Shown piece after piece: positions 22,372-24,036 of a DNA stretch of 35,944 bases. Positions within the stretch are counted from its first letter, which is position 1. Each line of letters begins with the position of its first letter. The notes beneath the pieces are model-generated. The model had not been told where the DNA came from. It ran no database searches and was given only the letters and a program-made list of their open reading frames with translations. The translations under genes and the position numbers were made by a program. Origin of the DNA: Acidobacteriota bacterium (lineage in GTDB: Bacteria; Acidobacteriota; Terriglobia; Acidiferrales; UBA7541); NCBI GenBank assembly GCA_003223295.1, contig QHYM01000327.1:1-35944 (forward strand), written 5' to 3'.

Positions 22372-23250
22372 TTAAGCTTTCTTCTCCGCAGCTTTCGGCT
22401 GTGGATACTCGTAGACTCCGCGCCCGCTCTTCCGTCCCAGGCGGCCTTCTTTCACGTATTTGCGCAGGAGTTCATTGGGCCGGTATTTCTCGCCGAGTGT
22501 GCTGTGCAAATATTCGAGAATGTTCAGCCGGACGTCCAACCCGACAAGATCCACCAGCTCGAACGGTCCCATCGGGTGATTCAAGCCCAATTTCAGCGCT
22601 TTGTCGATGTCTTCCGCCGTGGCGATCCCCGCTTCCAGCATGTTGAAAGCTTCGTTCCCGATCAGCGCATTCACGCGCGTAGTGATAAATCCTGGCGCTT
22701 CGTTCACCAGCACCACTTCCTTGCCCATGCGCCGCGCCACTTCGCGGCAGGTCACCACGGTTTCTTCGGAAGTGTGCGGCGTGCGCACCAGTTCGATGAG
22801 TTTCATCTTTGGCACGGGATTAAAAAAGTGCATGCCGATGCAGCGCTCGCGCGAAACGGTGATGTCCGTGAAATCAGTAATCGAGAGCGACGAAGTATTG
22901 CTAGCAAAGATCGCGCCGGTTTTCGCGAACTTATCGAAAATGGTGAAGAGTTCGAGCTTCATCTCCAGCTCTTCCGGAACCGCTTCAATGATCAGTTCGG
23001 CGTTTCGAATCGCGTCTTTCACATCCGTGGCTGTGGAGATCAGCGCGAGCGCTTTTTCAGGCACGCCGGCTTCGACTTTTCCCCGCGCGACCCCTTCTTC
23101 AAACGATTGCCGAATCCAGGCCACGGCTTGTTCGAGCACCCGCGAAGAAATATCTTCAAGCACGGTCTTGTATCCGCCGAAGGCCGCGGCGTAGGCAATT
23201 CCCCGGCCCATCGTGCCCGCGCCAATGACGGCAATGGTTTTCACATCCAT
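22372..23250 (-). CDS. hbd: 3-hydroxybutyryl-CoA dehydrogenase
   Basis: A 292-residue NAD(P)-dependent 3-hydroxyacyl-CoA dehydrogenase of normal length. The Rossmann motif IAVIGAGTMGRGIA begins at residue 6; IIEAVPEELEMK, FASNTSSLSIT and the catalytic-His segment MHFFNPVPKMKLIEL follow; the C-terminal helical domain has NEAPGFITTRVN and GLNHPMGPFELVDLVGLD. It oxidises L-3-hydroxyacyl-CoA to 3-oxoacyl-CoA and fits with the two crotonases encoded upstream in the same direction. A thiolase and an acyl-CoA dehydrogenase are missing from the window. Confidence 0.95.
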   Translation of the reverse strand: MDVKTIAVIGAGTMGRGIAYAAAFGGYKTVLEDISSRVLEQAVAWIRQSFEEGVARGKVEAGVPEKALALISTATDVKDAIRNAELIIEAVPEELEMKLELFTIFDKFAKTGAIFASNTSSLSITDFTDITVSRERCIGMHFFNPVPKMKLIELVRTPHTSEETVVTCREVARRMGKEVVLVNEAPGFITTRVNALIGNEAFNMLEAGIATAEDIDKALKLGLNHPMGPFELVDLVGLDVRLNILEYLHSTLGEKYRPNELLRKYVKEGRLGRKSGRGVYEYPQPKAAEKKA

Positions 23251-23282: not shown

Positions 23283-23636
23283 TTATTTCAAAAGATTCTT
23301 GTATGCCTTTTCGTCAAAACCGAGAACCATCTGCGTACCGCGAATCACCACCGGCCTCCGGATTAGATTTGGCTCTTTAGCCATCAGTTGGATGGCTTCC
23401 TCGCGCGAAGGCGGATGCTCCCTCATGTTTCGCGTTCGAAAGAGCTCGTTGCGCGTGTTCAGAAAGTCCTTGTAATCGCGCTGGCCGATCAGCTCTTCGA
23501 TCTCGGACGCGCTTAGCCGTTCTTTATCCAAATCGCGCGATTCGAGTTCCGCACCCAGCTCCAGCAAGAGACCTCTTGCTTTGCGGCAAGTGGTTCACGT
23601 GGGCTTGTTCAGAAATTTGACTTTGACTTTTGGCAT
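23283..23636 (-). CDS. Candidate selenocysteine-containing ArsC/Spx-family redox protein (in-frame TGA)
   Basis: Read from ATG 23636, with GGAG in CCGGAGAGCGC just upstream, the frame gives MPKVKVKFLNKPT, then TGA (23597-23595), then TTCRKARGLLLELGAELE and onward to TAA, 117 residues in all, the normal ArsC/Spx length. The TGA is at position 14, exactly where the first Cys of the CxxCRKA motif belongs; Cys17 is intact. The remainder fits the family: RDLDKERLSASEIEELIG, DYKDFLNTRNELFR and the hallmark PNLIRRPVVIRG with GFDEKAY. No frame change is needed on either side of the TGA. A SECIS-like hairpin follows it. A conventional start at TTG 23567 would delete beta-1 and the active site. Best reading is a UxxC selenoprotein; a nonsense mutation or sequence error is the alternative. 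It lies between rhodanese and Hbd genes in one operon-like run. Confidence 0.8.
23549..23586 (-). promoter_or_regulatory. bSECIS-like hairpin downstream of the TGA codon
   Basis: On the minus-strand mRNA, GCAAGA-GGUC-UCUUGC (23579 to 23564) is a perfect six-base-pair stem with a GGUC tetraloop; the first loop G is 21 nt after the UGA. A lower helix CCGCA/UGCGG (23586-23582 with 23553-23549) can stack below it across an asymmetric internal loop. The apical GGUC is identical to that of the E. coli fdhF SECIS, where the loop G and U contact SelB, and the distance lies in the range usual for bacterial elements. Because the hairpin is within coding sequence its conservation would be constrained by the protein, which makes the perfect pairing more telling. 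Confidence 0.7.
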
Positions 23637-23712
23637 GCGCTCTCCGGTGGCAGCGACGGAGCTTTTTGTCAGCAGATTCGAATGAATGCGGCGCCCCGGC
23701 AAGAAAAGATAA

Positions 23713-24036
23713 TCAGTAGCGCGGGACTCTGGAATCGACTTCCAGCGACCAGCGCTCGATTCCCCCAGCCAAGGACTTGGCTCTTTGAAATCCCTGAAAA
23801 CGCAGCCACGCCGCCGCATCTAAGCTTCGCATGCCATGATGGCAATAACAAATCACCTCGTCCGCCTCAGGCAGGATGTTCAAGTTGGCCGCCAGCGAGC
23901 CGAGCGGAACGAGTTGCGCGCCCTCGATGCGGCATATTTTGAATTCCCACGGCTCCCGGACATCAACGAGCATTACCTGTTCGCCCCGGTCGAGCCGTGC
24001 CTTCACTTCCGCGGGCGTAATCTCCAATTGGTCCAT
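23713..24036 (-). CDS. Rhodanese-domain sulfurtransferase
   Basis: A 107-residue single-domain rhodanese of the GlpE/PspE size class. The core VMLVDVREPWEFKICRIEGA (about 21-40) is the CH2A-type segment, the active-site loop is C65-HHGMRS, and the C-terminal LAGGIERW is typical. It should carry a persulfide on Cys65 and transfer sulfur to a thiol acceptor. It ends 76 nt before the ArsC/Spx-family gene and starts 7 nt after the crotonase stop, so it is within the same transcription unit; persulfide or selenide handling next to a putative selenoprotein is suggestive but unproven. Confidence 0.93.
   Translation of the reverse strand: MDQLEITPAEVKARLDRGEQVMLVDVREPWEFKICRIEGAQLVPLGSLAANLNILPEADEVICYCHHGMRSLDAAAWLRFQGFQRAKSLAGGIERWSLEVDSRVPRY

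Follow-up and report, generated by a model that had tools for sequence, protein, structure and literature searches.

Introduction

Selenoproteins of the ArsC type have been published before. Under the name 'Arsenate reductase 2' (cd03032), the published description in the 2008 GOS survey (PMC2398784) gives 42 sequences with a UxxC motif, where U is selenocysteine (Sec); an arsenate reductase-like UxxC protein also appears in two reviews, in the later one (PMC13188914) as NF041106. For the phylum considered here, the relevant passages of PMC1794560 give three selenoprotein families in Acidobacteria, and two ArsC-like selenoproteins; the deep-Sep work, whose main text names neither ArsC nor arsenate, credits a single Acidobacteriota genome with three known selenoprotein genes. 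Among the titles and abstract openings, mostly from outside subscription journals, of literature on ArsC/Spx proteins, acidobacterial selenoproteins and Sec/Cys exchange, we did not find the family described in Acidobacteriota. A preliminary description of the DNA studied here, made from its letters, had cautioned that novelty would need checking; with the GOS 2008 and NF041106 proteins in print this caution was justified, and the acidobacterial branch described below adds a well-supported member to a published kind of selenoprotein.

An ArsC/Spx-family gene with an in-frame UGA

The window, by which we mean the whole analysed stretch of 35,944 nt (contig QHYM01000327.1, positions 1 to 35,944, of a soil Acidobacteriota bacterium), contains the following features, each given with the evidence for it.

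23283..23636, minus strand: gene for a predicted ArsC/Spx-family UxxC selenoprotein (Pfam ArsC, 64.5 bits; Cys homologues; codon 14 alignment)
23595..23597, minus strand: in-frame TGA, codon 14, predicted to place Sec at the presumed catalytic residue of UxxC (alignment of codon 14 across 79 loci)
23586..23588, minus strand: Cys17, second Cys of UxxC, presumed resolving residue (95 of 95 aligned members)
23642..23645, minus strand: GGAG, ribosome-binding-site-like, 5' of ATG 23636 (sequence reading)
23564..23579, minus strand: SECIS-like hairpin, stem GCAAGA/UCUUGC, loop GGUC, nt 19-34 from the U of UGA (conservation in 46 of 49 TGA rows)
23713..24036, minus strand: rhodanese-domain gene, directly upstream (Pfam Rhodanese, 4.7e-19)
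22372..23250, minus strand: 3-hydroxyacyl-CoA dehydrogenase, directly downstream, not part of the selenoprotein (Pfam 3HCDH_N, 7.7e-59)

Translation of the minus strand agrees with the preliminary description in that the frame from ATG 23636 to TAA 23285-23283 is broken solely by TGA 23597-23595, its codon 14, with no further stop. The read-through translation begins MPKVKVKFLNKPT-U-TTCRKARGLLLELGAELES and, with UGA taken as Sec, gives a product of 117 aa. The TGA falls on the first Cys of a CxxC motif, which would become UxxC within K-P-T-Sec-T-T-C; that the protein so affected belongs to the ArsC/Spx family, as had also been claimed, is borne out by the match to Pfam ArsC (PF03960; E 1.2e-17, score above the gathering cut-off of 24) and by the codon 14 alignment. 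The ORF list gives the stop-free part as 94 aa from TTG 23567, exactly where a conventional call had been expected to start. This TTG sits within the SECIS-like hairpin (23579-23564), and a start there would cost the product its active site; a gene caller could in this way truncate a selenoprotein by a start inside its SECIS.

Codon 14 in related genomes

A search of 151 genomes, the window's own included, yielded a homologue at E <= 1e-15 in 76. These supplied 80 loci from the window's genome and its relatives, and in the 79 that span codon 14 (L112 stops short of it) the codon is TGA in 49, TGC in 25 and TGT in 5, with nothing else seen. The same TGA occurs in 47 further genomes of this set. 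Bacterial selenoproteins are recognised by an in-frame UGA at a position where homologues have Cys, and the Cys homologues proposed in the preliminary description, whose alignment extends along the length of the protein, are these 30 TGC and TGT loci. Its argument that a chance nonsense mutation would rarely hit this one codon gains from the restriction to TGA, TGC and TGT in all 79 loci. It had further named other stops in sister genomes as the mark of a pseudogene: at codon 14 there is no scatter of them among the 79 loci, and this part of the argument stands, but one distant TGA-form copy (G418:C2, locus L233) has an extra TAG at codon 26 and is either decaying or in error.

A phylum-wide draw of 396 genomes gave 36 matches at E <= 1e-18, 34 of them new; from these 34 we fetched 20 loci, namely all 18 with TGA and two of the 16 without, and among the loci fetched codon 14 is TGA in 18, that of G418 included, and TGT in two. 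Nine named loci with the same protein come from Acidobacteria or Acidobacteriota MAGs, with gp2 in the titles of six. Viral contigs held one distant relative (29%), and plasmids gave 13 records, each below 60% identity.

A conserved hairpin downstream of the UGA

In bacterial selenoprotein genes the UGA is followed immediately by a SECIS whose apical loop contains G and U, and a hairpin of this kind follows the UGA of the window. In 46 of the 49 TGA rows (the main register), nt 19-24 always pair with nt 29-34 and nt 26-27 always read GU, compared with all six stem pairs in none of the 30 Cys rows and GU at nt 26-27 in two. The pair closing the loop, 25-28, covaries in the main register (G-C in 39 rows, A-U in seven), though the rows are related and these counts do not equal independent events. 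AGA occupies codon 21 in 45 of the 46 main-register rows, while it makes up 4.3% of the 487 Arg codons further along the same ORFs; codon 24 is TTG in all 46. Elsewhere on the same strand of the same TGA loci, a scan of 141,807 other offsets finds the fixed-register hairpin 20 times.

Three TGA rows, from genomes G076, G077 and G087, fold another hairpin (for example GCUCGAC-AGUUC-GUUGAGC) with GU at nt 27-28, the stem of G077 having one mismatch. Judged by eye, A-U replaces G-C at 23-30 in four of six TGA loci of family f28, and more distant TGA loci of the phylum set have other stems (also by eye). Conservation and covariation support the hairpin as a putative Sec insertion signal, and this element, which is absent from the preliminary description, is the strongest evidence for the predicted insertion of Sec. 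With their covarying RGUY loop and one-nucleotide register shift, these loci form a test set for SECIS rules.

Selenium machinery in the genomes

All four genes that had been proposed as a check on the source genome are there: selA (571 bits), selB (350 bits), selD (349 bits) and selC, the tRNA-Sec (64.9 bits, anticodon UCA). The selD gene (L118, G000:C136:8380-9342, minus strand) has its own in-frame TGA, at GUAAK, and a strong hairpin (-21.6 kcal/mol) after it; from these features it is probably a second selenoprotein gene. A count of two tRNA-Sec genes in this genome was rejected: the identical copies (L115 973-1326, equal to G000:C465:6472-6825) lie in a shared stretch flanking a run of N and are most likely one gene, duplicated as an assembly artefact. 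An ORF next to the tRNA-Sec (L115 674-958; L142) resembles, by eye, the C-terminal end of a tyrosine recombinase.

Across the relatives we counted tRNA-Sec only above 57 bits, so that G085, G086 and G150 are scored as lacking it on score alone. On this tally tRNA-Sec is present in 38 of the 48 TGA genomes, SelB over the cut-off in 45 and one or both in 46; the corresponding numbers for the 28 Cys genomes are 19, 19 and 21, and the comparison of TGA with Cys genomes (Fisher's p 0.01) ignores kinship and incomplete assemblies. Neither gene passed its cut-off in seven Cys genomes, three of which (G051, G061 and G106) are at least 94% complete, nor in two TGA genomes, G087 (73% complete) and G127 (82%), which gave no tRNA-Sec match and no SelB over the cut-off. 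In 10 of the 48 TGA genomes tRNA-Sec was not found by the Rfam search, by a looser Rfam search or by a DNA search with the tRNA-Sec of the window's genome, the last being weak for distant genomes (it missed G114, which is positive by Rfam); ARAGORN, applied to 20 of the 22 looser-Rfam matches, gave other tRNAs. Five TGA genomes with SelB over the cut-off gave no tRNA-Sec match (G046, which is 97% complete, G016, G040, G052 and G133), due either to assembly gaps or to a divergent tRNA-Sec.

A Cys-form genome with SelB over the cut-off, G041 (98% complete), shows no whole tRNA-Sec match and has a 46-base 3' piece of tRNA-Sec together with five copies of 20-25 bases of the 3' end (E < 0.005), which could be leftovers of integrating elements. 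Short tRNA-Sec copies are present in G030 and G056 as well, and G041 may be less special than it looks.

Reading of the UGA codon

The codon 14 pattern, the hairpin and the sel genes support the claim of the preliminary description that Sec stands in place of the catalytic Cys, and we put the probability that the gene represents Sec insertion in an ArsC/Spx-fold redox protein at about 0.9. Following the general scheme of bacterial Sec insertion, SelB with Sec-tRNA(Sec) would read UGA 23597-23595 as Sec by means of the hairpin GCAAGA-GGUC-UCUUGC. A pseudogene or a sequencing error, with the TGA a true stop or a wrong base, has a precedent in the family in G418, whose TGA and TAG point to decay or error; but 49 of 79 loci share the TGA while the other 30 carry Cys codons in its place, and the hairpin is conserved at synonymous positions, all of which makes this explanation very improbable. 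Nor do we give appreciable weight to a general code change that would make UGA a codon for Cys or another residue: it would fit the Cys at codon 14 of relatives without TGA, but it would need no hairpin, and of the TGA-form ORFs 24 of 49 in the 151-genome set and 12 of 18 in the phylum set have TGA as their terminal stop.

Fold and possible function

The top NCBIfam model is TIGR01617 (Spx/MgsR), which matches all 53 members, some of them more strongly than the window protein (best E 2.5e-26); the window protein scores 70.7 bits and a member from genus g4 74.0, below the cut-off of 75.05. NF041106 (ArsC_rel_Se_1) matches 48 of the 53 at E <= 1e-5, with the window protein at 37.6 bits, far below the cut-off of 85, and we take the best member (E 1e-11) to lie below it too. 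An AlphaFold2 model from the 53-member alignment has a pLDDT of 93.2 and resembles, among solved folds, an ArsC-family protein (Z 16.9), YffB (16.4), Spx (15.8) and E. coli ArsC (14.3); the best sequence matches among solved structures are Spx proteins. Invariant in the 53 members are K11, U/C14, C17, A20, L91, R94, P95 and G106, and R62 is nearly so; the count of 95 given for Cys17 above covers all aligned members.

In the mechanism we infer for a UxxC reductase, the selenolate of Sec14 would attack an oxidised substrate, Cys17 would resolve the intermediate as a selenenylsulfide, and a thioredoxin-type reductant would restore the enzyme. Fold and motif incline us towards such a reductase step with some confidence. 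Its substrate may be arsenate, a peroxide, a small disulfide, or a persulfide from the neighbouring rhodanese. A rhodanese lies near the gene in at least 31 of 49 TGA loci and at least 16 of 30 Cys loci (lower bounds, as some flanks are short); a functional link with the selenoprotein is possible, and a tie to persulfide chemistry is a guess. Matches to the 3-hydroxyacyl-CoA dehydrogenase, whose position differs between loci, turned up in 26 of the 49 TGA loci and in 10 of the 30 Cys loci, some with short flanks.

Two more specific functions can be weighed against this. Arsenate reduction proper, in which Sec itself would attack arsenate as the nucleophile, would suit the ArsC fold, the invariant R94 and the nearly invariant R62, residues that presumably answer to Arg94 and Arg60 of E. 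coli ArsC. However, the protein scores 40.4 bits with the arsenate reductase model TIGR00014, whose cut-off is 106.05, the profile match to E. coli ArsC stops at profile position 99 and leaves the third arginine (which we take to be Arg107) unmatched, and no ars gene is found among the nine window proteins scanned, so we consider this function doubtful. A Sec-containing Spx-like regulator, in which the redox state of Sec14-Cys17 would govern binding to RNA polymerase, is suggested by the Spx proteins as best matches among solved structures and by TIGR01617, the top model, which matches all members. But G52 of Spx, the residue of the alpha-CTD interaction, corresponds to D54 in the profile alignment or to a gap in the single-sequence alignment, and K62 is E64 in the profile alignment, although R60 is kept as R62. 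According to the relevant part of PMC2801614, the source for the roles of these three residues, G52 is absolutely required for activation via alpha-CTD. These differences favour a UxxC reductase, which on residue comparison is most likely the better description than an RNA-polymerase-binding Spx regulator; we judge the latter unlikely.

Exchange of Sec and Cys in genus g4

On a 76-row protein tree built with codons 14-26 omitted (and leaving out L111, L113 and L114, which are cut or frame-broken, and L112), the U/C label switches at least eight times, three of the switches being forced by well-supported branches. We looked at genus g4 of the same family, where 18 of 20 genomes have the gene and three (G076, G077 and G087) have the TGA. 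For this genus, gene trees again without codons 14-26 are indecisive: in the protein tree the three U rows group together within the Cys rows (93/94, not starred), in the DNA tree they are split, holding them together there gives p 0.367, and a single clade of all 16 Cys rows is not rejected (p 0.174). The SelB tree, from which G087 and G075 are missing because their SelB was not found over the cut-off, and which was rerun without G070 (a long odd row) and without G083, places the U genomes G076 and G077 within Cys genomes, nearest to G060 and then G086, and rejects a single clade of the non-U g4 rows (p 1.9e-13). Rejection by rpoB and SelB combined (p 5.5e-6) is driven by SelB; rpoB alone leaves gain versus loss undecided (p 0.38).

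The SelB and combined trees make a regain of Sec with a shifted hairpin plausible, with rpoB alone and the gene tree indecisive, and we see about even odds that the g4 ancestor had the Cys form and that Sec was regained in the lineage leading to G076, G077 and G087, with a new SECIS arising in place from Cys-form coding sequence. Such a regain would have turned TGC into TGA and set the GU of the loop at 27-28, one nucleotide 3' of its main-register position 26-27, and the regained SECIS would have converged on the RGUY loop, with a pair that covaries here too: two of the three have AGUU and one has GGUC. Between G086 and G077 there are seven base differences over the 37 bases from codon 14 through the hairpin, the change from TGC to TGA included. 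Conversion of Cys to Sec as such is known, with 33 events inferred in the relevant section of PMC1794560. In the three g4 TGA loci (L074, L099 and L100) an HBDH-like stretch (39-40%) also separates the gene from the macro-domain gene; it is missing from most g4 Cys loci.

Dense sampling of Sec and Cys forms in close relatives offers a natural series for the loss of Sec and the birth of a SECIS within coding sequence; within the branch selenium has been exchanged for sulfur, and perhaps regained, in closely related genomes.

Comparison with known systems

The window protein shares its fold with E. coli ArsC (1i9d; Z 14.3, 20% identity) and YffB (1rw1; Z 16.4, 24% identity), and differs from the former in having UxxC where E. 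coli ArsC has CxxS. It is like Spx (1z3e, 3gfk, 7f75) in its fold, in the position of the CxxC and in the R60 equivalent, and unlike it in carrying predicted Sec for Cys, D54 or a gap for G52 and E64 for K62. With the GOS 'Arsenate reductase 2' proteins, compared through their published description, it has in common an ArsC/Spx-type domain with Sec first in UxxC, the family described here coming from Acidobacteriota. NF041106, which by its published account is an 'ArsC family (seleno)protein' model covering Sec and Cys members, agrees with it in family and in UxxC but differs in score, 37.6 bits against 85; what we describe is a selenoprotein branch present in many Acidobacteriota genomes, whose member in the window falls under the cut-off of that model.
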